Of a stretch of 64,000 nt of DNA, positions 14,261-33,929 are shown one piece after another. Below the pieces are notes generated by a model. The model did not search any database. It saw only the letters and a program-made list of their open reading frames with translations, and was not told where the DNA came from. The position numbers and the translations under genes were made by a program. Each line of letters opens with the position of its first letter. Position 1 is the first letter of the stretch. The DNA comes from an uncultured Paracoccaceae bacterium (GTDB taxonomy: Bacteria > Pseudomonadota > Alphaproteobacteria > Rhodobacterales > Rhodobacteraceae), in NCBI GenBank assembly GCA_947503765.1, contig CANNFA010000003.1, positions 372,001 through 436,000 on the forward strand, given 5' to 3'.

Positions 14261-14274
14261 CGAGGATGCATCCC

Positions 14275-16794: not shown

Positions 16795-17464
16795 CGCCGG
16801 CAATCGGGGTCTCGGCGCGCGTGAATGGGCCGAGGTCAGCGCGCAGCGGTCCCGCCTCTATGGCTGGTTCTCCACCCTCTATGCCCGCGAAATCCCGAAG
16901 GACACGCTCGCATCCTACCTGGCAGGCACGGATAGCCCGTTCGCGGCGTTCTCGGCCCTTGGCCTTGGCGCCGAAGTCCGGCGTCTTCAAGCCGGCCTCG
17001 ACGCCCTGCGCGGCGTGGCGGACGCGCATCTCGACCTGGCGGCGGATTTCGCGCTTTTGTTCCTGCTCGACGCCAGGACCGGTGCCCTGCCCTATGCTTC
17101 GGTTCACGGGGCGGAGGATGCGCGGCTTTACGGCCCGCCGGAAGCCCGCATGCAGGAATTCCTCGCCGGCGCGTCATTGGCCGTCCAGGATGAATTCAGG
17201 GAACCGGCCGATCACCTGGCCGTCTATCTCGCCGTGATGGCGCGCCTTGCCGAAGACCAGGGGCAGGCCGCGGATATCGGCGCGGCGGCGCGCGACCAAA
17301 TCGCCTTTCTGCAAGACGCGCTGCTTTCCTGGCTGCCAGCCTTCGACGCGGCCCATCACCAGGCGTCCCCGCGCTTCGATTTCTACCCCGCATTGGCCGC
17401 CCTGCTTGTGGCCGTGGTCAGGCTCGACGCCCAGTTCCTTCGCGGCGCCTTGCAACCTGATTGA
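16787..17464 (+). CDS. torD: TorD-family cytoplasmic chaperone
   Basis: A 225-residue mostly helical protein of the TorD/DmsD redox-enzyme maturation family. It binds the TorA leader and helps load the molybdenum cofactor before Tat export. The segment [18 protein letters not shown] corresponds to the family's conserved PYxSxY-type region, and a later [13 protein letters not shown] matches the EPxDHLxxxLxFM motif. Its ATG overlaps the torA stop by eight bases (ATGCCTGA), so translation is coupled. It ends the torECAD operon. Confidence 0.92.
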
Positions 17465-17648
17465 CGGGCGCTGTCCCGTGTGGCCGTATGCGGACCTCGC
17501 GCTAGGTCTTTTCCTCCCGGAACCGGCGCAATAACGGCCTTCCCGACGCGATAATCCCGTAAGCTTGTTGAAACTGCGCGTCTGATCGGCCAACGATTCC
17601 CGGCGCGAAGCCGGCAGAGCGGAGACGGCAGAAAGGTATGGACCCCGG

Positions 17649-20364: not shown

Positions 20365-21537
20365 TCAATCCGATCCCGCAGCGCCCTGCCCGCCGAAAGC
20401 CGTGCCATAGGGCTTGAACTCGCCATCCGCCAGGTAGGCCTCATGCGCGGTCATGAGCTTGTCCATGTCCACGTCATAGCCGATGCCCGGCGCGTCGATG
20501 ACGCCCCATCGCGGGCCGCTGGCGATCGGGATGTCCTGCGCAAGGATGTCGCCTTCAAGCATATAGGCGGTCTGCTGGTTGCCGGCGGCGACATTGGGGA
20601 GGGTCAGCAAAATGTGCTGCGCGGCCGCGGCGGCCAGCCCGAATTCGCCATGGGTGTGCTTGTGGATCCTGATGTCATTCTGCGCGGCCATGAAGCACAG
20701 CGTCTGCCAGCGCCGCAGCGATCCGGTGAAATAGGGGCTGAAACACAGGTAATCGACCGACCGCGCCTGGATGATCCGGCTGGCATCCGCCTCGGTCCAC
20801 AGCCCCTCATTCGCGCAGACGGAGACCCCGGTGCGGCGGGCGATCTCGGCCATGTTCTCGTGGCGGGCGATGCTGGACGGCGCCTCGATGAAATCGAGAT
20901 CGCAGGCCGCGTGCATGGCGGCGATGTTCTTCAGCGCCTCGGCGAAGGGCCAGGCCTGGTTCGGATCCACCCGTAGTCTTGCCTGCGGGCCGACCGCGTC
21001 GCGAACGACCCGCAGCATGGCAAGCTCTGCCGCGAAATCCACCCCGGCTTTGAGGTAATAGGCGGTGAACCCCTTGGCCGCGCCATCTTCGCATTGGGCG
21101 CGCATTTCGGCCTCGCTGCCCCAGTCGAGATAGTAGAAATAGTCGATCTCGGCATTCAGCGCGCCGCCGAACAGCCGATGGATCGGCTGCCCCGCCGCCT
21201 TGCCGCACAGATCCCACAAAGCCATGTCGATCCCGGCAAAGGCGAAATTTCCGGTCATCGCCTGCCATTGCCAGCCGCCATGCACGAAGAAGTCGCGCGC
21301 GATCGCCTCCGTGTCCCAGGGATTGCGCCCCAGAACGAACGGGCGCGCGGCCTCGACCGAGGCGATGGTCGTGGCGATGTCGCAATTCATGCAGGCCTCG
21401 CCCCAGCCTTCCAGCCCGTCATCGGTGGTCAGGCGGATGATGACGCCGGACACGCCGCCGCGCGATATCAGCGCGCTGCGTTCGATATGCTTGTAGGGCA
21501 TGACGATGGGAAAGACGTCGAATGCGGTGATCTTCAT
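20365..21537 (-). CDS. Enolase-superfamily (mandelate racemase/muconate lactonizing type) enzyme
   Basis: A 390-residue enzyme predicted to abstract a proton alpha to a carboxylate. Metal ligands are visible as Asp191 (RVDPNQAW), Glu218 (FIEAP) and Glu244 (CANEG). A lysine base candidate is in YLKAG (about 163), and an HKHTHGEFG segment near 292-300 holds possible second bases. The set does not match DgoD and I cannot name the acid substrate; a sugar-acid dehydratase or racemase is the best guess. It is the last gene of the ten-gene operon, 36 bases beyond the aldolase stop. Confidence 0.85.
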   Translation of the reverse strand: MKITAFDVFPIVMPYKHIERSALISRGGVSGVIIRLTTDDGLEGWGEACMNCDIATTIASVEAARPFVLGRNPWDTEAIARDFFVHGGWQWQAMTGNFAFAGIDMALWDLCGKAAGQPIHRLFGGALNAEIDYFYYLDWGSEAEMRAQCEDGAAKGFTAYYLKAGVDFAAELAMLRVVRDAVGPQARLRVDPNQAWPFAEALKNIAAMHAACDLDFIEAPSSIARHENMAEIARRTGVSVCANEGLWTEADASRIIQARSVDYLCFSPYFTGSLRRWQTLCFMAAQNDIRIHKHTHGEFGLAAAAAQHILLTLPNVAAGNQQTAYMLEGDILAQDIPIASGPRWGVIDAPGIGYDVDMDKLMTAHEAYLADGEFKPYGTAFGGQGAAGSD

Positions 21538-21573
21538 GGCAGAACTCCTGTCATATTCGCAGCGCGGGTCTGC

Positions 21574-22461
21574 CTACGCCCCGAAACGGCCCAGATGGTC
21601 GGCCCAGCGCCGCGCCATGGCAAGACCGGCCGGGGCCGGTGCCAGCGCCGGGGCGCGGTCATGGATGTCGATCCCGGTGCGGTAGCCGAAGACGCGCTTG
21701 CCATAGCAGATCAGGTGTTCCACCGATTGCATCATGAAGACCAACGCCGGCAGCGCATGCCCATAGGCGGCCTCGGCCCCGGCCCGGTCGCCTGCCTGCC
21801 ACAGCGCGAATGTGCGCACCGCGTGGTCCACCGCATCGGGCGCCAGCACGAAGCCGGCCGCGCCATGGGCAAGGCAATCGGTCATCTCCAGCCCGCCGCG
21901 CCCGGCCAGATAGGTCAGATCCGGCCCGCAGCGCGCCGCCAACGCGGCGAAATCCACCGCGCTGCTTTCGGCCTTGACCAGCGCCAGTTCCGGGATCCGT
22001 TCGCGCAGCCGCGCCACGTCCTCGGGCGCCAGCGCGCGGCCCAGCAATTGCGGTGCGTTCTGGATCGCCACGGGCACGGGGCAGCCTTCCGCGGCCTCGG
22101 CGAAGAAATCGAGATAGACCTGCGCGCCGTAATTGCCCGCGAGCGGCGGCTGCAGGATGACGAAGGCCGCGCCGGACGCGGTGGCATGGGCGATCCGGCG
22201 GCGCTGTTCGGCGACCGAATTGCCGGCGATCGTCACCGACAGGGGCACGCGGGTGCCGATATCCTCGGCCGCCCAATCCACCACGTCGCGGCATTCGGCC
22301 TCGGACAATTTGCCGACCTCGGTGGCAAGGCCGAGCACTGTCACGCCGGCCACGCCGGCGCCCAGCACCGCCTCGACCTGCGCGCGCATGGCGCCAGGGT
22401 CCAGCGCGCCGGACTTGTCGAACAGCGCGTAAAGGACGCAATGAACCCCGGAAACGCTCAT
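21574..22461 (-). CDS. DHDPS/NAL-family aldolase-like protein, atypical
   Basis: A 295-residue TIM-barrel protein of the dihydrodipicolinate synthase/N-acetylneuraminate lyase family. The Schiff-base lysine is in LALVKAESS (Lys163). The usual YNxP tyrosine is replaced, reading IQNAPQ (Gln134), and the TTGE loop reads LATEV (45-49), so two of the three proton-relay residues are changed. These enzymes cleave or form 2-keto acids; in this operon a 2-keto-3-deoxy-sugar acid would be the expected substrate, but the altered site makes this uncertain. It overlaps the M24 gene by four bases. Confidence 0.82.
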   Translation of the reverse strand: MSVSGVHCVLYALFDKSGALDPGAMRAQVEAVLGAGVAGVTVLGLATEVGKLSEAECRDVVDWAAEDIGTRVPLSVTIAGNSVAEQRRRIAHATASGAAFVILQPPLAGNYGAQVYLDFFAEAAEGCPVPVAIQNAPQLLGRALAPEDVARLRERIPELALVKAESSAVDFAALAARCGPDLTYLAGRGGLEMTDCLAHGAAGFVLAPDAVDHAVRTFALWQAGDRAGAEAAYGHALPALVFMMQSVEHLICYGKRVFGYRTGIDIHDRAPALAPAPAGLAMARRWADHLGRFGA

Positions 22462-23564
22462 TCCAGCCGCCAATCCTGAACGAAATCGGTCAGGTTCTCG
22501 CATCCGGTGGCGGTGACGCGGAACATGAACTCGCAGCGCGCGCCGCCGATGCCGGGCACATAAGCGCCCGGCTCGACCATCAGCACCATGTTCTCCTCGA
22601 TCAAAGCGTCCTCGTCCGGCACGAGGCGCGGCCATTCGTGAACCGAGGTGCCGACACCGTGGCCGCTGTGATGCGGATAGCCATGGCCGCGCTTTTCCAT
22701 CGAGGCGCGCAGCATCGCATCGAAGGCACCGACCTTCAGGCCGGGGCGCAATTCGGCCTCGGCCAGCGCCAGCGCCTCGCGCGCGGCGGTCCACAGGTTC
22801 ACATAGGCGTCGCTGGCCGTATCGCCGATGACGAAGGATCCACAGCTATCGCCCCAATACCCGGCCACGCGCGGCGCCAGATCGCACAGGACCGGATCGC
22901 CCTTGTCCATGGTCGCCGCGCTGACCGGAAGGCCAAGCTGCGCGGTCCGGTCCGCCGTGGCAATATATTCGCCGGCCAGTGCGCAGCGTTCGCCCGCCAT
23001 GCCCTCCATCGTGGCGCGGATCGCGTTCAGCGCGCCAAGCTCGGTCTGGCCGGGGCGGCTGACCGCGCGCGCGGTCATCTGGCCGGCGGCGGCGACCTGC
23101 CCGCAAAAGCGCAAGAGTTCGATCTCGGCCGGGGTCTTGACCGCGCGCAGGCGTTTGAGCGGCTCTGCAATGTCGGACCTGTCAGCTGGCAGAAGCTCCG
23201 CCACGATGGAGGGCAGCGACGGCTCCACCCCGATCCGTCCCGAAACGCCCAGCCGCCCGGCCAATGTGCGCACCGCCGAAAGGTAATTGCCGACCTGGTC
23301 GGTCACCGCATTGGCAAAGCCGGGATAGCTCTCGTAGTCGGCATCCACCTGCACGCCTTCGATATTCGGGGCGACGATGCCGCGGCTTCCGTCCCGGCCG
23401 ATGAAGGCCAGCACGGGCCCGCCCGCGAATGGCGACGGGCCGGTCTCGATCCCGCAGACATGGCCGGTGGCAAAACAGGTACTGTCGAACCCCGACAGGA
23501 CCAGCCAGTCGAGCCCTTCCTCGGCCATCAGCCCCTGCAGCCGCGCGATGTTTCCGGTGCTCAT
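22458..23564 (-). CDS. M24-family (Xaa-Pro dipeptidase/creatinase-like) metallohydrolase
   Basis: A 368-residue protein with a creatinase N-domain and a pita-bread C-domain. The five metal ligands are visible: Asp in LCDLAP, Asp in YWGDSCG, His in GHGVG, Glu in VEPGAY and Glu in RCEFMFRV. It may cleave Xaa-Pro dipeptides or, like creatinase, another C-N bond. Its place in a sugar-acid operon is unexplained. Start ATG at 23564 lacks extra residues found in the longer frame and has GAGGACGGGG upstream. Confidence 0.87.
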   Translation of the reverse strand: MSTGNIARLQGLMAEEGLDWLVLSGFDSTCFATGHVCGIETGPSPFAGGPVLAFIGRDGSRGIVAPNIEGVQVDADYESYPGFANAVTDQVGNYLSAVRTLAGRLGVSGRIGVEPSLPSIVAELLPADRSDIAEPLKRLRAVKTPAEIELLRFCGQVAAAGQMTARAVSRPGQTELGALNAIRATMEGMAGERCALAGEYIATADRTAQLGLPVSAATMDKGDPVLCDLAPRVAGYWGDSCGSFVIGDTASDAYVNLWTAAREALALAEAELRPGLKVGAFDAMLRASMEKRGHGYPHHSGHGVGTSVHEWPRLVPDEDALIEENMVLMVEPGAYVPGIGGARCEFMFRVTATGCENLTDFVQDWRLE

Positions 23565-23574
23565 CCCCGTCCTC

Positions 23575-24723
23575 CTACCATTCCGCGATGGACCCGTCCG
23601 CATGGCGCCAGACCGGCGCGCGCCAGTCATGGCCTTCGGCGGCGCGGGCGATCACCGCGTCCTCGTCGATCTCGACGCCAAGGCCCGGCCCTTCGGGGAT
23701 CGGCAGATAGCCATCCTCGATAGCCGGACCCTTGCCGCCGATCACGTAATCGCCGTGACCGACATCGGCGTTGTAATGGATGCCCGAGGCGAATTCCTGC
23801 AGAGCCGCGTTGTGGCACAGCGCATCCACCTGCAGGCAGGCGGCCAGCGCGATCGGTCCCAGCGGGCAATGCGGCGCCAGCGCCACGTCATAGGTTTCCG
23901 CCCAGGCACCGATGCGCAGCATCTCGGTGATGCCGCCGACATGCGCGGTGTCGGGGTTCACGATCCCGGCGGCGCGGGATTCGAAAACCGGCTTGAAGGC
24001 GTCGCGGCTGTGCAGGCGTTCGCCGCAGGCCAGCGTGATCGGCGTGGCGCGGGCCAGATCCGCCATGGCACCCAGCTGGCTGGACAGAACCGGATCCTCG
24101 ACGAACAGGGGCCGCATCGGCTCCAGCTCTCGCAGCAGGATGCGCGCCATGGGAACGCTCGCGCGGCCGTGGAAATCCACCGCGAGGTCAAAGCCCGGCC
24201 CCATCGCATCGCGCAGTCCGCCGATATTTGCGACAATGGCATCCACCGCCGCATGGCTGTCGATCATCGCCAGTTCGGCGCCGACATTGAACTTGGCCGC
24301 GCCGAAACCGGCATCGCGGGCGCGCTTTGCATCCTCCAGCAGGGTATCGGCGCGGTCGCCGCCGATCCAGGTATAGGCGCGGATCCGGTCGCGGACCCGG
24401 CCGCCCAGCAGCGCATGAACCGGCTGGTCCAGCGCCTTGCCGCGAATGTCCCACAGCGCCATGTCGATCCCGGCAATCGCGCTCATCAGCACCGGGCCGC
24501 CGCGGTAGCAGCCATTGCGGTACAGCATCTGCCAGATATCGGTGATGCGGGCCGGATCGCGGCCGATCAGCATGGGCGCGTATTCGTCGATCTTGGCCGC
24601 AAGCGTGCGCGCGTGACCTTCGAGAACCGGCTCTCCCCAGCCGCTGATGCCGGCATCCGTCTCTATCTTGAGGAACAGCCAGCGCGGCGGGACGACAAAG
24701 GTGCGAAGGGCGGTGATCTTCAT
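23575..24723 (-). CDS. dgoD: D-galactonate dehydratase-type enolase-superfamily enzyme
   Basis: A 382-residue enzyme, the same length as E. coli DgoD. With the start at 24723, key residues fall at the same numbers as in DgoD: Asp183 and His185 (VDFHGR), Glu209 (VEDPV), Glu235 (CGERLH) and His285 (APHCPLGP). The RWLFLKIETD opening and NPDTAHVGGITE segment also match. It should dehydrate D-galactonate or a close analogue to a 2-keto-3-deoxy acid. Two further in-frame ATG codons lie 12 and 24 bases upstream, but the first would overlap little of the preceding gene and is less family-like. Confidence 0.88.
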   Translation of the reverse strand: MKITALRTFVVPPRWLFLKIETDAGISGWGEPVLEGHARTLAAKIDEYAPMLIGRDPARITDIWQMLYRNGCYRGGPVLMSAIAGIDMALWDIRGKALDQPVHALLGGRVRDRIRAYTWIGGDRADTLLEDAKRARDAGFGAAKFNVGAELAMIDSHAAVDAIVANIGGLRDAMGPGFDLAVDFHGRASVPMARILLRELEPMRPLFVEDPVLSSQLGAMADLARATPITLACGERLHSRDAFKPVFESRAAGIVNPDTAHVGGITEMLRIGAWAETYDVALAPHCPLGPIALAACLQVDALCHNAALQEFASGIHYNADVGHGDYVIGGKGPAIEDGYLPIPEGPGLGVEIDEDAVIARAAEGHDWRAPVWRHADGSIAEW

Positions 24724-24743
24724 GTCGCTTTTCATGTCCCTCT

Positions 24744-25991
24744 TCATTCCGCGGCCCTCGCCCCCGGCGGAGCGACGACGGTTCCGGCGGCGATCAGCCT
24801 GTCGATCTCCGGCCCCGAAAAGCCGGCCTCACCAAGAATGGCGGCGCTGTGCTGACCGTAAAGCGGCGCGTGGCGCAGATGTGCCTCTGGCGCGCGGGGA
24901 AAGTCGATGCCGGGGGCGACGGTGCGATAGGTGCCGCCGACGGGATGTTCCATCCGGGTCAGCAGCGACGCGGCCTGGGGATGATCGAGGAAGGCCGCGT
25001 AATCGTTCACCACCATGCACCAGACCCCGGCCGCGTCCAGCACCTTGTCCCAATGGGTGGCCGGCGCGTCGCGCAGCAGATCGGCAAAGGTGGCATAGAC
25101 CTTGTCGCGCCAGGCGGTGATCGCCGGCCCGTCCGCGTCGCGCGGGCGGCTTGACTTGAGCTGTGCCAGATCCGGCCGGTCCAGCGTTTCGGCCAGGACG
25201 CCCAGATCGGCCTGCGCAATCGCCAGGAACCCTTCGGAACAGGCAAAGACGCCATAGGGCGGCTCCTGGTAGGTGGACACGACCTGGGGCGCCGCGCCGC
25301 GTTCGGGCGGCGTTTCGGCGGCCAGATAGGTCGCGACCTCCTGGCACTGCATCTCCATGATGGCGCCGATCATCGTGACGCGCACCGGCTGGCCCCGCCC
25401 CGTCACCCCGCGCGAGACGAGCGCCGCGAGGACGCCTTCGCAAAGCATGTGGCTGGCGGCCACATCGACCATGTAAAGCGGGCTGGGACGTGGCAGGTCG
25501 CCCCGTTTCCCGCCATTCATCGTCAGCCCGGTAAAGGACTGGACCAGCAGATCCTGCCCCGGCCGGTCGGCCATCGGCCCGTCCTCGCCATAGCCGGAGA
25601 TCGACCCGTAGACCAGCGCCGGGTTGATCGCGGCCAGCGTGTCATAGTCGATCGCCAGCTTGCGCGCCACGCGCGGGCGGAAATTCTGCACCAGCATATC
25701 GGCCTCGGCGACCAGCCGGTGCAGGACCGCCCTGCCCTCTTCGGATTTCAGGTCCAGCACCAGCGAGCGCTTGTTCTGGTTGAGCTCGGTAAAGCACATC
25801 GCATCGCCGAACCGGCGCACCCCGGCCATCGGCGCGTGGCGGGAAAAGTCGCCGCCGCCCGGCGCCTCGACCTTGATGATCTCGGCCCCCATCTCGCCCA
25901 GCCGCTGGGTGCAGAGCGGCCCGGCCAGGGCGATGGTCAGATCCAGCACCTTCAGCCCGCCCAGGGGCCGTGTCTCCAGCATGGCAGTCAT
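24744..25991 (-). CDS. Class III CoA-transferase (CaiB/BaiF family)
   Basis: A 415-residue protein of the family III CoA-transferases, which move CoA between carboxylic acids. It opens with GLKVLDLTIALAGPLCTQRLGEMGAEIIKVE, the family's CoA-binding start, and the catalytic aspartate is in the RPGQDLLVQSFTGL segment (about 165). The usual NKRSLVLDLK motif is present. It is immediately downstream of an enoyl-CoA hydratase homologue (one base between genes). Together they suggest that one catabolic intermediate is processed as a CoA thioester. The acid is unknown. Confidence 0.9.
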   Translation of the reverse strand: MTAMLETRPLGGLKVLDLTIALAGPLCTQRLGEMGAEIIKVEAPGGGDFSRHAPMAGVRRFGDAMCFTELNQNKRSLVLDLKSEEGRAVLHRLVAEADMLVQNFRPRVARKLAIDYDTLAAINPALVYGSISGYGEDGPMADRPGQDLLVQSFTGLTMNGGKRGDLPRPSPLYMVDVAASHMLCEGVLAALVSRGVTGRGQPVRVTMIGAIMEMQCQEVATYLAAETPPERGAAPQVVSTYQEPPYGVFACSEGFLAIAQADLGVLAETLDRPDLAQLKSSRPRDADGPAITAWRDKVYATFADLLRDAPATHWDKVLDAAGVWCMVVNDYAAFLDHPQAASLLTRMEHPVGGTYRTVAPGIDFPRAPEAHLRHAPLYGQHSAAILGEAGFSGPEIDRLIAAGTVVAPPGARAAE

Positions 25992-25992
25992 G

Positions 25993-26781
25993 TCATTTCC
26001 CCCTGAAGACCGGGTCGCGTTTTTCGCCGAAGGCGCGCATGCCCTCGCGCGCATCCTCGGTCATCATGCACAGCGTGTAGCCGTCGTTTTCCCAGCTCAG
26101 CCCCTGGGCAACGGAGGTGCCCTGGCTCTGCCGGATCACGTTCTTGGCCGACTGGACGGCAATCGGCGGGTTTTTCGCCAGCCGCGCGGCCAGATTCATC
26201 GCCTCGGCGTCCAGATCCTCGGGCGCGCATAGCCGCTGGACGAAGCCGACGCGATACGCCTCTTCGGCCGGGAAGATGTCGCCGGTCAGGATCCACATGG
26301 CCGCGTTGCCATAGCCGATCAGCCGCGGCAGGATCGAGGTGTTGCCGCTGCCGGCATGCCAGCCGCGCTGCACCTCGGGCGCGCCGAAGAGCGACCGGTG
26401 CGTGGCGATGCGGATGTCGCAGGTGATCGCCACTTCCAGCCCGCCGCCAAGGCAATAGCCGTCGATCGCGGCAATGGCCGGTTTGCGCAGGCCCAGAAGC
26501 GGCGCGATATAGTCGCGGTCGTAATCGGCGCGGTTGCGCCCTTCCCAAGGGGTGCCGAGATCGTCGAGCATGTTGACATCGCTGCCCGCCGAAAAGGCCC
26601 GGTCCCCGGCGCCGTCGATGATCAGCACCTTGATCGCATCGTCGCAGTCGATCTCGCGCGCGATGCGGGCGATCTCTCCGCCCATCGCGGCGGTGATGGC
26701 GTTCATCTTGGCGGGGCGGTTCAGCGTCAGGCGGGCGATGCCGTCCTGAACGCGGTACTGGATATGGCTGTCCTCAGTCAT
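25993..26781 (-). CDS. Enoyl-CoA hydratase/isomerase (crotonase) family protein
   Basis: A 262-residue crotonase-fold protein. The oxyanion-hole segments are SAGSDVNML (about 62-70) and GYCLGGGLEVA (about 106-116). The first catalytic-region glutamate is kept in FGAPEV. The second glutamate of classical hydratases (in AMEMVLTG) is absent, since the equivalent segment reads AAMWILTG. Other crotonase chemistries (isomerase, hydrolase, lyase) are therefore possible. It overlaps the upstream mutarotase-like gene by eight bases. Confidence 0.87.
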   Translation of the reverse strand: MTEDSHIQYRVQDGIARLTLNRPAKMNAITAAMGGEIARIAREIDCDDAIKVLIIDGAGDRAFSAGSDVNMLDDLGTPWEGRNRADYDRDYIAPLLGLRKPAIAAIDGYCLGGGLEVAITCDIRIATHRSLFGAPEVQRGWHAGSGNTSILPRLIGYGNAAMWILTGDIFPAEEAYRVGFVQRLCAPEDLDAEAMNLAARLAKNPPIAVQSAKNVIRQSQGTSVAQGLSWENDGYTLCMMTEDAREGMRAFGEKRDPVFRGK

Positions 26782-27577
26782 GGCTGTCCTTTCCACCGGC
26801 GCGCAGCCGGATCGTCACCTGCCAGCGCCGGCTTGTGCCCGGTGCCAGCGATATTGCGTCTTCCCCGGCGGCGACCAGATCGTCGGCGGGCGCGGTCGTC
26901 GGCTCCAGCGCGACCTGGTGGACCGGCGCCTCTTCGGGCCAGCCGCCCTGGTCGAGCCACAGGCCGAAATGCCCGATCTCGTCTGCCGCCCATTCCAGCC
27001 GGATGCCGCCCTCCGGGCCGTCCAGCCCGACAGAGGCATGCCCCTTTACCGGTCCGTAGGCCTTGAGAACGGTGCCGTCGCGGGCGATCCGGTCCGGCAC
27101 ATCCGCGCGGTTCAGCGGGCCGATCCCGTCCAGGACCAGCCGTTCGCCGGGGCGGGCCTCCAGCAGGCAATGCTGGCTCCACATCCAGACCAGGGGCTTT
27201 GAGGCGGTATTCGTCACCTCGTAGCGGGCGATCACGCTGGCCCCGTCCAGCACCAATTCCCGGGCGAAGCGGTAGCCGGACCCGTCGAAATAGGCCGCAC
27301 CCGCGCCGTCTGCCTGCCAGGGCCGGCCCCAAAGCGCGCCGTGATCGCGCATCCGGCCCCAGGCGGGGTGATCGCAGGGCGCGACGGTCGGGAAACACTC
27401 GTCCCAGCCGCGCGCCTCGGCGCCGCGATAGCTGGCCGCGTCCGACGCATCGCCCTCAAGCCGGCCGCCCACCAGCCAGTCGCGGCCATTGCGCAGATCG
27501 CGCAGCGAGGTCACCCGCGCGCCGAAACCGGGGGCCATCTCAAGCGCCAGGACATCGTTGCGCAAGGACAGGGTCAT
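26774..27577 (-). CDS. Aldose 1-epimerase (mutarotase)-like protein
   Basis: A 267-residue beta-sandwich protein of the galactose-mutarotase-like superfamily. Supporting segments are GFGARVTSLRD at the start, WDECFPTVAPCDH and DHGALWGRPW (the conserved His region), and VWMWSQHCLLEARPGE with a second histidine. It probably interconverts sugar anomers after import, consistent with its position directly after the sugar permease gene (four-base overlap). Similarity to classical GalM is partial, so it may act on another carbohydrate. Confidence 0.7.
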   Translation of the reverse strand: MTLSLRNDVLALEMAPGFGARVTSLRDLRNGRDWLVGGRLEGDASDAASYRGAEARGWDECFPTVAPCDHPAWGRMRDHGALWGRPWQADGAGAAYFDGSGYRFARELVLDGASVIARYEVTNTASKPLVWMWSQHCLLEARPGERLVLDGIGPLNRADVPDRIARDGTVLKAYGPVKGHASVGLDGPEGGIRLEWAADEIGHFGLWLDQGGWPEEAPVHQVALEPTTAPADDLVAAGEDAISLAPGTSRRWQVTIRLRAGGKDSHD

Positions 27578-28620
27578 TTGCCGCCCCGCGCCGCCGCCCG
27601 TGCCTGCTGCCGTTCCGACCGGGCCAGCCGCCACTGGCCGATGGCCACGGCGATGACCAGCAGCAGCCCCTTGGCCACAAGCTGATAGAAGGTGGCGATG
27701 CCCAGAAGGTTCATCCCGTTCGACAGCACCGCGATCAGCGTGACCGCCAGCATCGTGCCCAGGATCGTCCCCTTGCCGCCCGACATCAGCGCGCCGCCAA
27801 GGAAAACCGCCGTGATCGCCTCGAGCTCCAGCCCCTGCGTGCCCGAGGCCGGCTGCCCGGACGACGTGCGCGCCGTCACGATCACCCCGGCCAGCCCCGC
27901 CAGCGCGCCCGATGTGGCGTAGATCTGGAACTTCATCCGGTTCAGCGCGATCCCCGCCAGCCTTGCCGCGGCGGGGTTGCCGCCCATGGAATAGAGCGAG
28001 CGGCCGAACACCGTGGTGCGCATGACGATATGGGCCACCACCGCGACGGCCACGAGGATCAGGAAGGCCACCGGGATGCCCGGAAACCCGTCGCTTTGCA
28101 GCAGGCGCCCGGCGCCGAGGAACCGCAGGTTCGGGTCCAGAACGCCGACCGGCCGCCCGCCGGGCGCGATCAGGAAGGCGACGCCGCGAAAGGCCGAATA
28201 GGTCGCAAGCGTCGCCACCACCGGGTTCACCCGCAGGATGGTGATGATCGCCGCATTGACCAGCCCCAGCACCATGCCGATGGCGATCCCGCCGGCCAGG
28301 CCCAGCCCGACCGATCCGGTATGCACCACCAGCAGCGCGCAGACCACAGAGGCACAGCCGGCGATCGAGCCGACCGAGATATCCAGCCCCGCCGAGACGA
28401 TCACCAGCGTCATGCCCACGGCGATGACCCCGACCACGGCCATGTTCTGCCCTATATTCAGCACGTTGCGGGCGGAAAAGAAGAATTCGGTCTGCGAGGC
28501 GATCAGCGCGATCAGGATCACCAGCGCGATCATCAGCGACAGGTTTTCCGCCCCGACATAGGTGCCGATCCGTTTGAACGGCGAGGCGGGGCGCGCGGAT
28601 TGCTGGTCCATTGCGGTCAA
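27574..28620 (-). CDS. Sugar ABC transporter permease (RbsC/AraH type)
   Basis: A 348-residue inner-membrane permease with eight to ten hydrophobic segments, of the BPD_transp_2 family. The VGMTLVIVSAGLDISVGS stretch and the GGNPAAARLAGI loop are hallmarks of pentose/hexose permeases. A TTG at 28620 has AGGA about eight bases upstream and is used here; ATG at 28611 is the alternative. It forms a three-gene importer with the ATPase and binding-protein genes. Confidence 0.92.
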   Translation of the reverse strand: MTAMDQQSARPASPFKRIGTYVGAENLSLMIALVILIALIASQTEFFFSARNVLNIGQNMAVVGVIAVGMTLVIVSAGLDISVGSIAGCASVVCALLVVHTGSVGLGLAGGIAIGMVLGLVNAAIITILRVNPVVATLATYSAFRGVAFLIAPGGRPVGVLDPNLRFLGAGRLLQSDGFPGIPVAFLILVAVAVVAHIVMRTTVFGRSLYSMGGNPAAARLAGIALNRMKFQIYATSGALAGLAGVIVTARTSSGQPASGTQGLELEAITAVFLGGALMSGGKGTILGTMLAVTLIAVLSNGMNLLGIATFYQLVAKGLLLVIAVAIGQWRLARSERQQARAAARGGK

Positions 28621-28639
28621 ATCTTGGTCCTTTCGGGCG

Positions 28640-30136
28640 TCAGGCCGCAGTGCCGAGAGCGAGGTTCACGATACGCTCTTCGGTCGCTTCGGATTTGGGG
28701 ATCGGGTCGGAAATCCGGCCGTCATGCATCACGATCACGCGGTCGGACATGGCCAGAAGCTCGGGCATTTCGGAAGATATCATCATGATGGCGAGGCCCG
28801 AGCGGGCAAGTTCGTCCATCAGGCGGTAGATCTCGGCCTTGGCGCCCACATCGACGGCGCGGGTCGGCTCGTCCAGGATCAGCAGACGCGGCTTGGCCGC
28901 CAGCCAGCGCGCCAGAACCACCTTTTGCTGGTTGCCGCCCGACAGCTTGCCCACCTCGGTGTCCAGCGTCGGCGTCTTGATGTCGAGCGAACGGACCAGC
29001 GGGCGCACGGTGTCCAGCATCTCGTTCTGGCGCAGGAAGCCCCAGCGCGAGAGCTTGTGGAACACGGCCATGCAGGCATTCTCGATGACCGAGCGGACCA
29101 GGATCAGCCCCTCGCCCTTGCGATCCTCGGGGGCCAGCCCGATATTCGCGGCGATCCCGTCGGACGGGCTGCGGATGTCCTTGGCCTCGCCGGCGATGCG
29201 GATCGTGCCGCCGGTGCGCGCGTATTCCCCGAAGATGACCTTGGCAAGCTCGGTTCGCCCGGCGCCGACCAGACCGGCGAAACCGACGATCTCTCCGGCG
29301 CGGATCTCGAAGCTGATATCGTCATGCCAGCGGCTCGACAGGTTCTCGACCTGCAGCACCACCTCGCCGCCAGTGATCGGCTCGCGCTGCATGCCGTGCG
29401 AATCGAGGTTGCGGCCGACCATCAGGCGCACGATCTCGTCCTGGTCGGTTTCGCCAATCGGCAGGTTTCCGGTCGGCTCGCCGTCCTTGAGGATGAACAC
29501 GCGGTCCGAAATCTCCATCACCTCGTGCAGCCGGTGACTGACATAGACCACCGCCAGCCCGTCATCGCGCAGCTGGCGGATCAGATCGAACAGCCGCTCC
29601 GTCTCGCGCAGGGTCAGCGACGAGGTCGGCTCGTCGAAGGCCACGACCTTTGCGCCGGGCTTGAGCGCGCGCAGGATCTCGACCAGTTGCATCTGCGCGG
29701 GCGACAGGGTGCGGCCCTGCTGGTCAAGGTCGATCAGCCCGCGAAAGCCGTAGCGGTCCAGCATGTCCTCGGCGGCGCGGCGCATGGCGGTGAAATCCAC
29801 CCGGCCGCCGGCGCGGCGCGGCAATTCGCCGATGAAGATGTTCTCCAGCGCGCTGGTGAAGGGCACGATCTCGGGCTCCTGCCGGACCAGGCGGAACCCG
29901 GCCTCGCGCGCCTCCAGCGGTGTGGCGCCGGACAGGTCGACCGATCCCAGATGCACGCTGCCCTCGTCCAGCGTGTAATCGCCCGACAATATCTTGAGCA
30001 GGGTCGACTTGCCGGCGCCGTTCTCGCCGACGATGGCGACGATTTCGCCGGCATTCAGTTCGACCGAGACATCGGACAGCGCCTTGACCCCCGGAAAGGA
30101 CTTGCCGACGGAAGCGATATTCATGGCAGCGGCCAT
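28640..30136 (-). CDS. Sugar ABC transporter ATPase (RbsA/AraG type, two NBDs)
   Basis: A 498-residue protein with two tandem nucleotide-binding domains. The N-half has Walker A GENGAGKST (about 39-47), signature LSPAQMQLVE and Walker B VVAFDEPTS. The C-half has the degenerate Walker A LVGAGRTEL and an intact signature LSGGNQQKV. This asymmetry is normal for the CUT2 sugar importers. GAAGGGG lies about seven bases before the ATG at 30136. Confidence 0.94.
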   Translation of the reverse strand: MAAAMNIASVGKSFPGVKALSDVSVELNAGEIVAIVGENGAGKSTLLKILSGDYTLDEGSVHLGSVDLSGATPLEAREAGFRLVRQEPEIVPFTSALENIFIGELPRRAGGRVDFTAMRRAAEDMLDRYGFRGLIDLDQQGRTLSPAQMQLVEILRALKPGAKVVAFDEPTSSLTLRETERLFDLIRQLRDDGLAVVYVSHRLHEVMEISDRVFILKDGEPTGNLPIGETDQDEIVRLMVGRNLDSHGMQREPITGGEVVLQVENLSSRWHDDISFEIRAGEIVGFAGLVGAGRTELAKVIFGEYARTGGTIRIAGEAKDIRSPSDGIAANIGLAPEDRKGEGLILVRSVIENACMAVFHKLSRWGFLRQNEMLDTVRPLVRSLDIKTPTLDTEVGKLSGGNQQKVVLARWLAAKPRLLILDEPTRAVDVGAKAEIYRLMDELARSGLAIMMISSEMPELLAMSDRVIVMHDGRISDPIPKSEATEERIVNLALGTAA

Positions 30137-30219
30137 CGCTGGACCCCTTCAAGCCGGTTCTGCAAAGGAAAGCGTGGCGGCACCCGGCGCCTTGCCGGAT
30201 GCCGCAAGACGTGCCTGCG

Positions 30220-31182
30220 TCAGCCGCAGGGCATCACGTCGGCATAGGTATCGGGATCGACAATCGTGGTATCGGCCACCGTGTTCAGCGGCAGCGGCTC
30301 GTCATTCTCGATCGCGTTCATCAGCGCGGTGGCCGCGGCGGCGCCCACATCGGTGCCGCTGAGATACAGCGCCGCCTTGAAGCCGGACGGCAGACCGGCC
30401 GCCCAGGGCCGGCACGCCTCGTAGGCGCCAAGGCCCACGGCGATGACGTCATCGGGCTGGAACCCGGCATTGGAAAGCGCATTGACTCCGCCAAGCACGC
30501 CCTCGTCATTGCAGGCCACGACCACCCACTTGTTCACCTGCGGATTGGCGGTGATCAGCGGGCCGGCGGCGGAAAGCGACGCATCCGTGGTGCCGTCATA
30601 GGGCACCTGGACGATGCTGGCCTCGCTGGCGCCGGCATCCATGAGCTGGCCCTTGGCGGCATTGGTGCGGTCCTCGCAGACCGACAGGGTCTGCACCTCG
30701 ATCGACAGGATGCCGTAGGTCTCGCCGTCCAGCCAGCCGCTTTCCTTCAGCAACTCGCCCGCCCGTTCGCCGACCTTGGTGCCCATCGCGGTGCCGTCGA
30801 AACCGGCAAAGGGCACCGGATTTCCGGCCTCGTCGGTCAGCGGGTCGTCGGTGGCGATGATCGGGATCCCCGCCTCGGCCGCCGCTGCGGCAAGCGCCGG
30901 GCCAAGCGCCTGGTCGGGGGCGGTGATGGCGATGCCCGCCGCGCCGCCGGCAATGGCGTCCGACACGGCATTGATCGCCAGGTTGCTGTCCAGTTCCACG
31001 TTGATCACCCGGCTGTCGAAACCGCGTTCTTCGGCGGCGGCCTGGAAGCCCTCGGCCTGGTCGATGAAATATTGCTGGGTGCCGCTCTTGTAGATCGCGA
31101 CGATCTCTTCGGCGCTGGCCGCAGAGCCGAGCGCCCCGGCGGCGCAAAGCGCGGCGACGCTGATATAGTTAAAGATTTTCAT
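30220..31182 (-). CDS. Periplasmic sugar-binding protein, AraF-like
   Basis: A 320-residue type-I periplasmic binding protein with a Sec signal (cleavage near ASA-E, residue 24). Its layout is closest, from memory, to E. coli AraF: AINAVSDAIAGGAAGIAITAPDQALGPA, a TKVGERAGELL segment, VVACNDEGVLGGVNAL, and a DDVIAVGLGAYEA segment. The cargo is likely L-arabinose, D-galactose, D-fucose or a related sugar. It is the first gene of the ten-gene operon, with a strong GGAGGAG ribosome-binding site and a recognisable promoter. Confidence 0.88.
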   Translation of the reverse strand: MKIFNYISVAALCAAGALGSAASAEEIVAIYKSGTQQYFIDQAEGFQAAAEERGFDSRVINVELDSNLAINAVSDAIAGGAAGIAITAPDQALGPALAAAAAEAGIPIIATDDPLTDEAGNPVPFAGFDGTAMGTKVGERAGELLKESGWLDGETYGILSIEVQTLSVCEDRTNAAKGQLMDAGASEASIVQVPYDGTTDASLSAAGPLITANPQVNKWVVVACNDEGVLGGVNALSNAGFQPDDVIAVGLGAYEACRPWAAGLPSGFKAALYLSGTDVGAAAATALMNAIENDEPLPLNTVADTTIVDPDTYADVMPCG

Positions 31183-31229
31183 TGATTTCCGTCTCCTCCT
31201 GAACGCCCTGTTGCAGCGTCTGAAATTGT

Positions 31230-31258
31230 TTTATAGGTTTATCATACAAAGTCAACAA
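31230..31258 (-). promoter_or_regulatory. Sigma-70-like promoter of the ten-gene sugar operon
   Basis: On the minus strand, TTGTTG (31253-31258) and TATAAA (31230-31235) are separated by exactly 17 bases. They lie about 50-75 bases before the binding-protein ATG. The spacer contains TTGTATGATAAA, discussed below as an operator candidate. Confidence 0.5.
31238..31249. promoter_or_regulatory. Candidate GntR operator in the sugar-operon promoter
   Basis: TTTATCATACAA lies between the -10 and -35 of the operon promoter and close to the divergent SDR start. A near copy, TTTATCTTATAA (10 of 12 bases the same), lies at 33939-33950 next to the GntR gene start. Position suggests repression by steric block. 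Confidence 0.35.
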
Positions 31259-31271
31259 AAGGGATAGCGCC

Positions 31272-32057
31272 GTGAAAAGACTTGAGAACGCGATCGCGAT
31301 GGTGACCGGCGCCGGCCAGGGGATCGGCCATGCCATCGCGCGGCGATTCGCGGCAGAAGGCGCGCGCGTGGCCATCGCGGAACTGGACGACGATCTCGGC
31401 CTAAAGGCGGCGCGGGACATCGCTGCCGAGACCGGCGCCGACGTGATCGCCATCAGGACGGACGTGGCCGATGAAGGCAGCGTGAACGCCGCCGTTGCCG
31501 AAACCCAGGCGCGGCTGGGGCCGGTCTCGGTTCTGGTGAACAATGCCGGCATCGCGGTCTTCAGCGACCCGCTGGAGATGACGGCCGAGGATTGGCGCCG
31601 CTGCATGAGCGTCGATCTGGAGGGCGCCTGGCATTGCAGTCGCGCAGTGCTGCCGGGCATGATCGCGGCCGGTGACGGCGCGATCGTCAACATCATCTCG
31701 AACCACTCCTTCTCGGTGATCCCCAAGACGTTCCCCTACCCTGTCGCCAAGCATGGCCTTCTGGGCATGACCCGCGCGCTGGCGCTGGAATACGCGGCGA
31801 ACGGCATTGCCATCAACGCGATCTCTCCGGGCTATACCGACACGCAGATCGCCGAGACCACCTTTGCCGAGACCGGCGATGCCGCCAAGGCGCGCGCAAG
31901 GGTCGAGGCGCTGCAGCCGGTCGGCCGCCTGTGCCGGCCCGACGAGATCGCCGCCGTGGCCGCCATGCTGGCCAGCCACGAGGTGCGGTTCATGATCGGC
32001 GAGAATATCGTGGTGGATGGCGGCATCGCGATCCGGATGTACGAAAACCTGCCCTAG
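31272..32057 (+). CDS. Short-chain dehydrogenase/reductase
   Basis: A 261-residue Rossmann-fold oxidoreductase. The cofactor loop is TGAGQGIG, the NNAG motif is complete, and the catalytic set appears as Ser in IISNHS and YPVAK. An acidic ELDDD after strand 2 favours NAD(H). It is divergent from the sugar transporter operon and probably acts as the sugar or polyol dehydrogenase of the pathway. It starts with GTG, with AAGGGA upstream. Its stop shares the palindrome CTAG (32054-32057) with the stop of the convergent GH105 gene. Confidence 0.9.
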   Translation: MKRLENAIAMVTGAGQGIGHAIARRFAAEGARVAIAELDDDLGLKAARDIAAETGADVIAIRTDVADEGSVNAAVAETQARLGPVSVLVNNAGIAVFSDPLEMTAEDWRRCMSVDLEGAWHCSRAVLPGMIAAGDGAIVNIISNHSFSVIPKTFPYPVAKHGLLGMTRALALEYAANGIAINAISPGYTDTQIAETTFAETGDAAKARARVEALQPVGRLCRPDEIAAVAAMLASHEVRFMIGENIVVDGGIAIRMYENLP

Positions 32058-33130
32058 CGGCCCGCCCAGGCGCGTCTTGCAGTTTCCGCCGTCAGCACCG
32101 GCCCCTGCCCCCAGGGCACGATTTGGTCCAGCGGGACATGCCAGTAATGCTGGTCCACCAGCGCCGACATCACCGCCGCCGAAACGCCCGTCAGGTTGCC
32201 GGCCGCGTCCAGCTTGCCGCGCATCGCGCGCCAGGCGCGGTCGGCCGGTTCGGCGAATTCCGCCTCGGGCAGCAGCCCCGCCGCCATACCCCGGTAGAAC
32301 GCCGTCGCCATGAAGGCGCTGGTCGAGCTTTCGGGGCCCGAGCGCGGCTCGTGCACCATCGCGTGCCAATGGCCGTCCTCCAGCTGGTACGACACCATGC
32401 GGCGCGCCAGGCGCAGCGCCTCGGCGCGGACCTCGGCGGCGCCATCGATGTCGCCGGCAAAGGCGGCCACGTCCAGCAGGCCCAGCAGCGCCCAGCCCTG
32501 CCCCCGCCCCCAGCCGTCGATCCGGGCCTCGCCGGTCCGTTCCAGCCAGTAATGCCGGTACAGGCCGGTCTCGGGGTTCAGCAGCAGATCGCGGCAGCCC
32601 AGGATCTCGTCCACCGCCGCCCGGTTCCAGCCCGCCCCCGGCGCGATCCGCGCCAGATGGGCAAAGAAGGGCGGGTCGAAATGCATGCAGTCCAGCCAGA
32701 TCCCCGGCCCCGGATCCTTCATCAACTCGCGGTCTTCGGCGGACAATTCCACCCCGCCATAGGGCGGGCGCAGCGAACGCAGCGTATCCTCGAAGGTGAC
32801 CGACACCGCCCCGACATGGCGCCGCGCCTTGAGATGCGCGGCGAGATCCAGCACCGCGTCTCGCAGGACCGCATCCGAGGTCCGTTCGATCACCTCGCAC
32901 ATCACATGGCCCGGCGCCGTGTTGTCGTCGGGCTGCCAGGGCGTGCGGCGCGTGCCCCAGGCCCGGAAGAAGCCGTGCGAGAAGTCGGCATAACGCGGAT
33001 TTCCCGTCGCATCCGTGGCCGCGACCAGCCCTTCGAACCCGATCGAATCGCCGTAGAACCAGCCCTGGAAGGCATGTTCCATCAGCCGGTCGGCGACCTG
33101 CCCGACCAGGGCATCGTCGAGGAACTCCAT
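32054..33130 (-). CDS. GH105/GH88-type unsaturated uronyl hydrolase
   Basis: A 358-residue (alpha/alpha)6-barrel protein resembling YteR-like unsaturated rhamnogalacturonyl hydrolases. The WGRGQGWALLGLLD segment (about 215) is the family hallmark, and the catalytic acid candidate is Asp in GIWLDCMHFDPPFF (about 155). Such enzymes remove an unsaturated uronic acid left by polysaccharide lyases. No signal peptide is visible, so it should act in the cytoplasm on imported disaccharides. The ATG at 33130 lies four bases after the gntR stop, so the two are an operon. Confidence 0.82.
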   Translation of the reverse strand: MEFLDDALVGQVADRLMEHAFQGWFYGDSIGFEGLVAATDATGNPRYADFSHGFFRAWGTRRTPWQPDDNTAPGHVMCEVIERTSDAVLRDAVLDLAAHLKARRHVGAVSVTFEDTLRSLRPPYGGVELSAEDRELMKDPGPGIWLDCMHFDPPFFAHLARIAPGAGWNRAAVDEILGCRDLLLNPETGLYRHYWLERTGEARIDGWGRGQGWALLGLLDVAAFAGDIDGAAEVRAEALRLARRMVSYQLEDGHWHAMVHEPRSGPESSTSAFMATAFYRGMAAGLLPEAEFAEPADRAWRAMRGKLDAAGNLTGVSAAVMSALVDQHYWHVPLDQIVPWGQGPVLTAETARRAWAGR

Positions 33131-33134
33131 GCCG

Positions 33135-33929
33135 TCAATCCTTGTCCAGAAGCTTGAACCCGGCATTCGCGTCGTCGATGGCGCACTGGATCAGTACACG
33201 CATCGCCGCCTCGGCCGCATCCGCATCGCGCGCGCAGAACGCCGCAAAGACCGCCTCGTGCATTTCCTGGCTCTCGCGCATCCCGATCATCTCGCTGGTA
33301 TAGCCGCGCGCCTGCATCTGCAGGTCGATCAGCAGTTCCAGCGCCGCCTCGATGACGGCAAACAACTGCTCCAGCAGTTCCGACGAGACGCAGGCGATCA
33401 GCGCGCGGTGGAAATCGAGGTCGGTCTCGACGAATTGCCGGCGGCGGATATCGCTGGGCAGGTCGGCATTCTCGTAGACATCGACCTTGGCCTCCCAGGC
33501 CTGGGCCATGGCGGCGCGCTGCGCATCGCTTGCCAGTTCGGTGGCCGTCCGCGCCACCCCCGGCTCCAGCACAAGGCGCAATCGCAACAGGTCACGCAGC
33601 AGGCTTTTCCGGTCGCCGGCCCGGATCCGCCACTCCATCACATCGGGATCGAGCAGCCGCCAGGACGCGGTCGGCTGAACGCGGGTTCCGTCAGAGGTGC
33701 GGCTGCGCAGCATGCCCTTGGCCGACAGGATGCGCACCGCCTCGCGCACGACCGAGCGGCTGACCCGCAGGTCATCGACCAGATCGGCCTCGCGCGTGAT
33801 GACATCGCCTTCGGCCCAGACGCCCCCGGCGATCCGCAGGCCAAGCTCGTCGACCGCACCGCCAAGGATACCCCGCACCTCGATCCGGCCCGAAAGTTCG
33901 TAAACACTGTCTTTAGGTGCGTAAGCCAT
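33135..33929 (-). CDS. GntR-family regulator, FadR/FCD subfamily
   Basis: A 264-residue regulator. A winged helix-turn-helix (about residues 25-95) contains DDLRVSRSVVREAVRILSAKGML. The helical FCD ligand domain follows, with metal-ligand-type segments FVETDLDFHRALIACVSSELL and a later MHEAVFAAFCARD. FCD regulators typically sense sugar acids or other carboxylates, which fits the dehydratases next door. It likely represses the SDR and the transporter operon. Confidence 0.92.
   Translation of the reverse strand: MAYAPKDSVYELSGRIEVRGILGGAVDELGLRIAGGVWAEGDVITREADLVDDLRVSRSVVREAVRILSAKGMLRSRTSDGTRVQPTASWRLLDPDVMEWRIRAGDRKSLLRDLLRLRLVLEPGVARTATELASDAQRAAMAQAWEAKVDVYENADLPSDIRRRQFVETDLDFHRALIACVSSELLEQLFAVIEAALELLIDLQMQARGYTSEMIGMRESQEMHEAVFAAFCARDADAAEAAMRVLIQCAIDDANAGFKLLDKD

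Follow-up and report, generated by a model that had tools for sequence, protein, structure and literature searches.

Two modules in one operon

The window analysed here is a stretch of 64,000 nucleotides from an uncultured Paracoccaceae bacterium (contig CANNFA010000003.1, positions 372,001 to 436,000), and it contains a sugar-catabolic operon in which a family III coenzyme A (CoA) transferase (CoAT) and a crotonase of the enoyl-CoA hydratase family (ECH) are encoded among a sugar importer, a galactonate dehydratase (DgoD) and a DapA-family aldolase, with a GH105-type hydrolase gene nearby. Genes and loci were compared by sequence, with family assignments from Pfam and NCBIfam; loci and genomes are designated by L and G numbers. 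By gene content the operon is composed of two separable modules: a DeLey-Doudoroff-like galactonate branch (module 1), and a unit of GH105, ECH and CoAT that is accompanied by a mutarotase-like protein (module 2). The GH105/ECH/CoAT unit is a genuine and conserved one.

The constancy of CoAT among loci that were found by searching with CoAT is circular; searches with other proteins are free of this bias. The idea that CoAT is invariant in all such operons was dropped when a search with the importer protein found two operons without the CoAT/ECH pair. The periplasmic binding protein was matched in four of 295 family genomes, seven of 131 Devosia-family genomes (one of them at 41% identity) and one of 121 order genomes, this last match being once more in the genome of the window. 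Counted once each, ten genomes possess the importer at an identity of at least 66% (G782, with its importer at 41%, was left out). Eight of the ten (G000, G093, G678-G681, G697 and G761) encode GH105, ECH and CoAT, and also the mutarotase. The other two, G065 (importer identity 85%) and G291 (68%), possess the GntR regulator, the importer, DgoD and DapA, and G065 also the SDR, while no GH105, mutarotase, ECH or CoAT was found in the 19.9 kb around the importer of either (loci L127 and L128). A partial GH105/ECH/CoAT set was found in none of the ten. Since the pair is absent or present jointly with GH105, and DgoD and DapA occur without it in G065 and G291, two modules are distinguished.

The initial annotation of this DNA had proposed a single new catabolic pathway that included the CoA enzymes. 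Retention of the regulator, importer, DgoD and DapA by G065 and G291 without CoAT and ECH contradicts this: the galactonate branch itself can do without the pair, and the pair need not serve it. The accompanying suggestion of a uronate-containing substrate stays alive, since the pair is missing jointly with GH105 and the mutarotase, with the single pathway replaced by two modules.

Searches with GH105 gave matches in two of 295, two of 75 and two of 385 genomes, and all four close orthologues (in G000, G093, G678 and G697) sit with the CoA pair. At positions 7494-9373 of L126 (G455), a distant GH105 (31% identity, 117 bits) and a DapA homologue (42%) are immediate neighbours, and the CoA pair has no match in the 19 kb seen. 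In G697, the ECH match is split over two overlapping frames (L125, 6959-7743), which represents a frameshift or an assembly error.

Genes of the operon

As initially annotated, ten closely spaced or overlapping minus-strand genes, including those of the importer, the CoA pair, DgoD, an M24 protein and an aldolase, are packed over positions 20365-31182, with gaps of at most 83 nucleotides and several overlaps. The genes of the binding protein and the SDR are divergently oriented, and the GH105 gene, whose upstream neighbour encodes the GntR regulator, overlaps the SDR gene at the latter's end.

20365-21537, minus strand: MR1, enolase-superfamily protein (MR_MLE, PF13378/PF02746); closest solved structure 2pgw, 160 bits
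21574-22461, minus strand: DapA/YagE-like aldolase, candidate 2-keto-3-deoxygalactonate aldolase (DHDPS, PF00701); start inferred from alignment
22458-23564, minus strand: M24-family metal hydrolase, candidate sugar-acid lactonase (Peptidase_M24, PF00557)
23575-24723, minus strand: DgoD, D-galactonate dehydratase by profile (PRK14017 equivalog, 550 bits, cut-off 311)
24744-25991, minus strand: family III CoA-transferase, CoAT (CoA_transf_3, PF02515, 308 bits)
25993-26781, minus strand: crotonase/enoyl-CoA hydratase, ECH (ECH_1, PF00378, 173 bits)
26774-27577, minus strand: mutarotase-like protein (Aldose_epim, 15 bits, below the cut-off of 27)
27574-28620, minus strand: ABC sugar permease (BPD_transp_2, PF02653)
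28640-30136, minus strand: ABC sugar ATPase, double domain (ABC_tran, PF00005, two stretches)
30220-31182, minus strand: periplasmic sugar-binding protein, AraF type (Peripla_BP_4, PF13407); closest solved structure L-arabinose-binding protein 1abe, 112 bits
31272-32057, plus strand: SDR, candidate aldose 1-dehydrogenase (NCBIfam PRK07063, 338 bits, cut-off 306; the model names no function)
32054-33130, minus strand: GH105/GH88-type hydrolase, predicted cytoplasmic (PF07470, 132 bits, cut-off 26.6)
33135-33929, minus strand: GntR/FCD transcriptional regulator (PF00392 and PF07729)

Two details of the initial annotation had to be adjusted. The gene named as a mutarotase is present, and its sub-threshold profile score justifies only the term mutarotase-like; the GH105 and SDR genes are indeed neighbours, with the SDR on the plus strand and with GH105 and the FCD-type GntR regulator inside the annotated region rather than next to it. 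For CoAT, ECH, M24, DapA and MR1, none of the NCBIfam models listed reaches its cut-off (for ECH, the models listed were the best 25 of 71), so that their reactions are not supplied by annotation. MR1 was found in only two of 23 comparable loci (the window, and L047 at 44% identity) and is, on this distribution, accessory. Convergent with the operon, at 17649-19886, the large and medium subunits of a B12-type diol dehydratase are fused in one frame (PF02286, PF02288).

Conservation of the operon

A profile search of genome contigs with a CoAT alignment gave 22 loci. The 23 comparable loci are these hits with the addition of L037 and L078 (the window and a genome of its family) and without a distant locus of Sodalis (L059); L038 and L039, which have no CoAT, were also left out, and L129 lies on the same contig as L053. 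L043 and L046 derive from one metagenome-assembled genome. As some contigs end early, counts for the head part of the operon are restricted to loci in which the contig extends over the position concerned.

The gene order GntR, GH105, SDR (in the opposite orientation), binding protein, ABC ATPase, permease, mutarotase, ECH, CoAT recurs in Rhodobacterales, in Hyphomicrobiales including Devosia, and in SAR324, and also in Vibrio except that the mutarotase is not at that place. Identities across the recurring operons are 74-83% for ECH and 59-78% for CoAT. Recurrence of the order over several lineages is more than chance would give. ECH stands beside CoAT in 22 of 22 covered loci. The counts for the other head genes are 19 of 19 for GH105 (one of these being a 46-residue fragment where the contig stops), 18 of 18 for GntR, 18 of 19 for the SDR, 19 of 20 for the binding protein and 20 of 22 for the mutarotase. 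No relative was found on viral contigs. The association of the CoA pair with an operon that otherwise resembles the DeLey-Doudoroff type, noted in the initial annotation, is thus borne out and is conserved, and no description of the combination of CoA pair, GH105 and galactonate genes was found in the open-licence literature (subscription papers were outside the scope).

The tail of the operon varies: among the 23 loci, M24 occurs in 13, SMP-30 in seven, DapA in ten, DGOK in ten, DgoA in five and MR1 in two, and a TRAP permease gene is nearby in three. DgoD directly follows CoAT in 16 and is 9 kb away in L048. The expectation that the pair and dgoD would co-occur as a conserved set did not hold, the pair tracking the constant part of the operon and DgoD the variable part. 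DgoD relatives are encoded elsewhere in the genomes of L048 (69% identity), L054 (69%) and L051 (48%). The proposition that DgoD is always encoded elsewhere when absent from the operon fails, as the genomes of L056, L058 and L061 have no relative above 43% and that of Afifella has none at an E-value of 1e-40.

Module 1, a proposed galactonate branch

On homology and synteny, module 1 would operate as follows. A galacto-configured sugar would enter by the AraF-type ABC importer and be oxidised to a lactone by the SDR; a lactonase (M24 here, SMP-30 elsewhere) would open the lactone to galactonate; DgoD, which passes the cut-off of a profile that names its function, would convert galactonate to 2-keto-3-deoxygalactonate; and this intermediate would finally be cleaved, by the DapA-family aldolase here or by DGOK with DgoA in relatives, to complete a DeLey-Doudoroff route. 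The likeness to that route thus extends over the SDR, the lactonase candidate, DgoD and the terminal aldolase or DGOK/DgoA step; the window differs in having M24 at the lactonase position, a DapA-type aldolase with a substituted tyrosine, and the additional GH105, CoAT, ECH and mutarotase genes.

DGOK and DgoA have no match in the 26 kb of the window around the operon, and the DapA-type aldolase may stand in for them, as in non-phosphorylated variants of the route. Its profile is closest, among solved relatives, to those of YagE and L-KDA dehydratase. The Schiff-base lysine is kept (Lys162), and the tyrosine of YagE is replaced by Gln133 in all ten aligned sequences; KdaD is described as carrying glutamate at the corresponding place of the superfamily tyrosine (PMC13398020). 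In L127 and L128, DapA adjoins DgoD without the CoA pair, and the joint position of the two behind the importer in these genomes (G065 and G291) points to a 2-keto-3-deoxygalactonate aldolase function for DapA. The same two loci, in which DapA is paired with DgoD alone, weaken the idea that DapA serves only the uronate half of a substrate.

The M24 protein had led to the suggestion of an amide-linked substrate. Among the 23 loci, 13 have M24, seven have SMP-30, three have neither and none has both, and all seven SMP-30-labelled proteins match the Pfam family SGL (201-289 bits). Since M24 alternates with genes of SMP-30 lactonases, it looks like a stand-in lactonase, and the amide idea loses its support. 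The probability that the two would never co-occur by chance is 0.0005, a figure that ignores kinship. The CoAT tree leaves many forks open and has two long Sodalis branches; on it, the M24 label requires five changes and the SMP-30 label four, of which well-supported branches force two and one respectively. From the non-overlap and the repeated changes, M24 is proposed to be a lactonase. An exception to a strict swap is found in three of 19 more distant sister loci described below (L064, L083 and L121), which hold both M24 (45-47% identity) and a seven-bladed lactonase. The closest solved relatives of the M24 protein are Xaa-Pro dipeptidases, and a D, D, H, E, E pattern, presumably the metal-ligand motif, is visible in the alignment; its scores are far below peptidase cut-offs (94 against 630 bits for PepQ, 83 against 393 for the aminopeptidase model PRK09795). 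With M24 as query in the 295 family genomes, G093 proved to have the full operon and G013 a DgoD-M24 pair alone, while the match in G057 covers 55 residues.

Module 2, a unit of GH105, crotonase and CoA-transferase

The mechanism that best accommodates module 2, which is favoured with rather less than even confidence, is that CoA-dependent dehydration of an acidic glycoside yields the unsaturated substrate of GH105. A thioester enables a crotonase to remove water from the positions alpha and beta to the carboxyl group, and a 4,5-unsaturated sugar is the substrate of GH105 enzymes. Module 2 would thereby free galactose that is bound in an acidic conjugate, for which a small uronide is the likeliest candidate. 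CoAT would load CoA onto the uronide carboxylate; ECH would dehydrate the thioester between its alpha and beta carbons (in a uronide, C5-H and C4-OH); and CoAT would then transfer the CoA to the next substrate molecule, leaving a 4,5-unsaturated uronide. Hydration of this product by GH105 would cause the glycoside to fall apart, and the mutarotase would equilibrate the released anomer. CoAT and ECH would in effect substitute for a polysaccharide lyase, following the logic of CaiB and CaiD.

The joint presence or absence of GH105, ECH and CoAT speaks for this mechanism, as does the Afifella locus, in which GH105 accompanies the pair without importer, SDR or mutarotase. The sequences of the enzymes are largely compatible with such roles. 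Asp147, Arg209 and Trp213 of GH105, presumed here to be catalytic, align with the same residues in all four solved relatives shown (3k11, 5noa, 4q88 and 4wu0). No signal peptide of GH105 is visible by eye, so the enzyme should cut inside the cell, and the lack of the mutarotase in both operons without module 2 fits cytoplasmic release of one anomer. Glu116 and Glu136 of ECH, taken to be the two catalytic crotonase glutamates, are invariant in all 20 aligned sequences and align with solved hydratases; Arg82-Asn83-Arg84 and Trp141-His142 are further invariant polar stretches. Asp147 of CoAT, in the motif RPGQDLL, is presumably the catalytic aspartate and is invariant in 13 of 13. CoAT falls below the cut-off of all seven listed NCBIfam models, which include L-carnitine, formyl, succinyl and mesaconyl types (best 174 against 442 bits). 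Two matches to the KduI family in the window genome, not told apart from IolB, were not used.

Sister cassettes

More distant CoAT genes occur in a different setting. A tblastn search of plasmids with CoAT gave 29 records at 39-43% identity, 17 of which were compared; with L069 and the Sodalis locus L059 they constitute 19 sister loci, several of them near-copies. Seven still more distant loci (L070, L071 and L073-L077, 32-38% identity) were excluded from the counts. ECH is present in 18 of the 19, DUF4432 in ten and an enolase-superfamily gene in five; DUF4432, SDR, CoAT, ECH and FAH occur together in five (L065, L079, L080, L081 and L123).

Weimberg-type operons for pentoses use a 2-keto-3-deoxypentonate dehydratase of the FAH type. 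The sister cassettes resemble them in having an SDR (15 of 19), FAH (11 of 19) and an aldehyde dehydrogenase (three of 19), and differ in having CoAT with ECH or MaoC, a cytosolic solute-binding-like protein (17 of 19) and no IlvD/EDD match in any of the 19, a negative that rests mainly on two of five query open reading frames (L115 and L117) near the expected length. The sister cassettes thus look, from their gene content, like a Weimberg-type route with the CoA pair as first dehydratase. Their FAH protein resembles 2-keto-3-deoxy-D-arabinonate dehydratase 2q18 (64 bits) and best matches 9kkt (420 bits), a fumarylacetoacetate hydrolase family protein whose reaction was looked for in the open-licence literature and not found there.

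Two sister loci have distinctive compositions. On the Streptomyces plasmid (L068), a MaoC-type hydratase replaces ECH and lies with CoAT, FAH and aldehyde dehydrogenase between transposase genes. The Sodalis locus encodes a fuconolactonase-like protein (106 bits, cut-off 400), CoAT, ECH, a DGOK-like kinase (26% identity) and a KDPG-type aldolase, with no dehydratase match within the locus.

The solute-binding-like protein (PF13416; for example L064, 10188-11336, with no visible signal peptide) is near CoAT in 19 of 21 sister and intermediate loci (the 19 plus L072 and L130) and in none of the 23 window-type loci. It was not found in Croceibacterium L066, where a GH88 gene is present in its stead, or in L069, a locus cut off by the edge of its contig. 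GH105/GH88 and the PF13416 protein were not found together in any sister, intermediate or window-type locus.

L069 is a second cassette of the window genome, of the sister type (SDR-ECH-DUF4432-CoAT), at the end of contig C5 (positions 14123-18048 of the locus), and is 51-67% identical to sister-type queries from Pseudosulfitobacter and Croceibacterium. L130, in G782, is an intermediate operon that encodes the importer (40-51% identity), SMP-30, CoAT (48%), ECH (43%), a DgoD-like protein (39%), a mutarotase (38%) and the cytosolic solute-binding-like protein, with no GH105 match in 20 kb.

Weighing the explanations of the CoA pair

Several observations count against dehydration of an acidic glycoside. 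The operons without module 2 number only two, and the mutarotase is missing from L051 and L052, both of which hold GH105, ECH and CoAT. Whether or not module 2 is present, the importer has the same conserved motifs, which points to a single monosaccharide-like ligand; a different importer may be required for an acidic disaccharide, and three of the 23 loci have the TRAP permease gene nearby. His193 of GH105 matches a histidine in only one of the four solved relatives (3k11). ECH has Ala134, two residues before Glu136, where the solved hydratases shown have glutamine or leucine; the catalytic residues of rat crotonase are given as E144 and Q162 (PMC9007349), and Ala134 appears to occupy the place of that catalytic glutamine. 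Finally, two observations fit a different use of the pair. In 18 of the 19 sister cassettes (about 40% identity), CoAT and ECH occur without a GH105/GH88 match, and the Afifella locus has DGOK and DapA beside the pair in a genome that lacks a DgoD relative at the threshold given above.

The main rival, which is possible if somewhat doubtful, is that the pair is a CoA-dependent aldonate dehydratase: CoAT would make an aldonyl-CoA, ECH would dehydrate it at C2/C3, and a 2-keto-3-deoxyaldonate would be handed on. In the window its substrate would be a second aldonate, beyond that of DgoD, with GH105 delivering the second sugar. The sister cassettes speak for it, as they put CoAT and ECH where a sugar-acid dehydratase is expected, with FAH frequent and IlvD/EDD unmatched; so do the exchange of ECH for a MaoC-type hydratase in Streptomyces, the dehydratase-free Sodalis locus, and the presence of DGOK without DgoD in Afifella. 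However, the Sodalis genome holds a DgoD relative (54% identity) elsewhere, an aldonate dehydratase does not explain why DgoD directly follows CoAT in most window-type loci, and by itself it leaves the joint absence of the pair, GH105 and the mutarotase in L127 and L128 unexplained.

It is unlikely that the pair acts after GH105, the freed acidic moiety being activated by CoAT and then hydrated, dehydrated or cleaved by ECH on its way into central metabolism. The identical linkage to GH105 would be accounted for, but the usual GH105 product opens to 5-keto-4-deoxyuronate, which does not have the beta-hydroxy acid arrangement that a hydratase needs, and no thiolase or acyl-CoA dehydrogenase is among the 13 typed window genes. 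A CoA ester of a sugar acid does have a precedent, having been proposed for deoxyribonate catabolism in Klebsiella michiganensis, where the cluster likewise includes a CoA-transferase; the enzymes proposed there are a CoA-synthetase, a 3-hydroxyacyl-CoA dehydrogenase and a thiolase, and crotonase and GH105 are not named in the passages on that pathway (PMC6365646).

It is very improbable that CoAT and ECH open 3,6-anhydro-galactonate to 2-keto-3-deoxygalactonate with the C3 ether as leaving group. The product would feed DGOK and DgoA, and the reaction would be the CoA-dependent counterpart of a step that a cycloisomerase performs in agar and carrageenan catabolism, but GH105 would have no role and hosts such as Devosia and Pararhizobium are not obvious users of agar or carrageenan. 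That the pair is a separate acyl-CoA pathway sharing a transcript by happenstance would suit the two operons without it and is hardly credible given the ECH-CoAT adjacency over several orders (in loci found with CoAT), the joint absence with GH105, and the location of sister pairs beside sugar genes as well.

Relation to known systems and significance

CaiB and CaiD of carnitine metabolism are a family III CoA-transferase and a crotonase, the same pairing of enzymes as in module 2; both would dehydrate a beta-hydroxy acid and recycle the CoA from product to substrate, judging here from the pairing of the genes. The pair of the window differs in lying in a sugar operon, and its CoAT scores only 106 bits with the model for L-carnitine CoA-transferase, the cut-off of which is 413. 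With the unsaturated uronyl hydrolases of GH105/GH88 (YteR, 4wu0, 4ce7), the hydrolase of module 2 shares the family and the three aligned active-site residues; it is distant from them (46 bits to YteR) and, unlike them, is tied to CoAT and ECH.

The broadest version of the proposal, in which uronic-acid glycosides undergo cytoplasmic, lyase-free cleavage by way of a CoA thioester, the enzymes form one branch of a larger group of sugar-acid dehydratases that depend on CoA, with aldonate versions represented by the sister cassettes, and M24 is a lactonase, is doubtful as a whole. Two gene swaps offer testable assignments, namely M24 in place of SMP-30 as lactonase, and GH105/GH88 versus the solute-binding-like protein beside the CoA pair. 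Catabolic dehydration of sugar acids is usually the work of IlvD/EDD or enolase-superfamily enzymes, and GH105 substrates usually come from polysaccharide lyases. A CoA-transferase and crotonase pair that is tied to GH105, or that takes the place of an aldonate dehydratase, would if confirmed be a third chemical solution, and in the former case glycosidic bonds would be cleaved in a lyase-free, CoA-dependent manner. Genes of the CaiB/BaiF and enoyl-CoA hydratase families would then be annotated differently where they adjoin sugar transporters.

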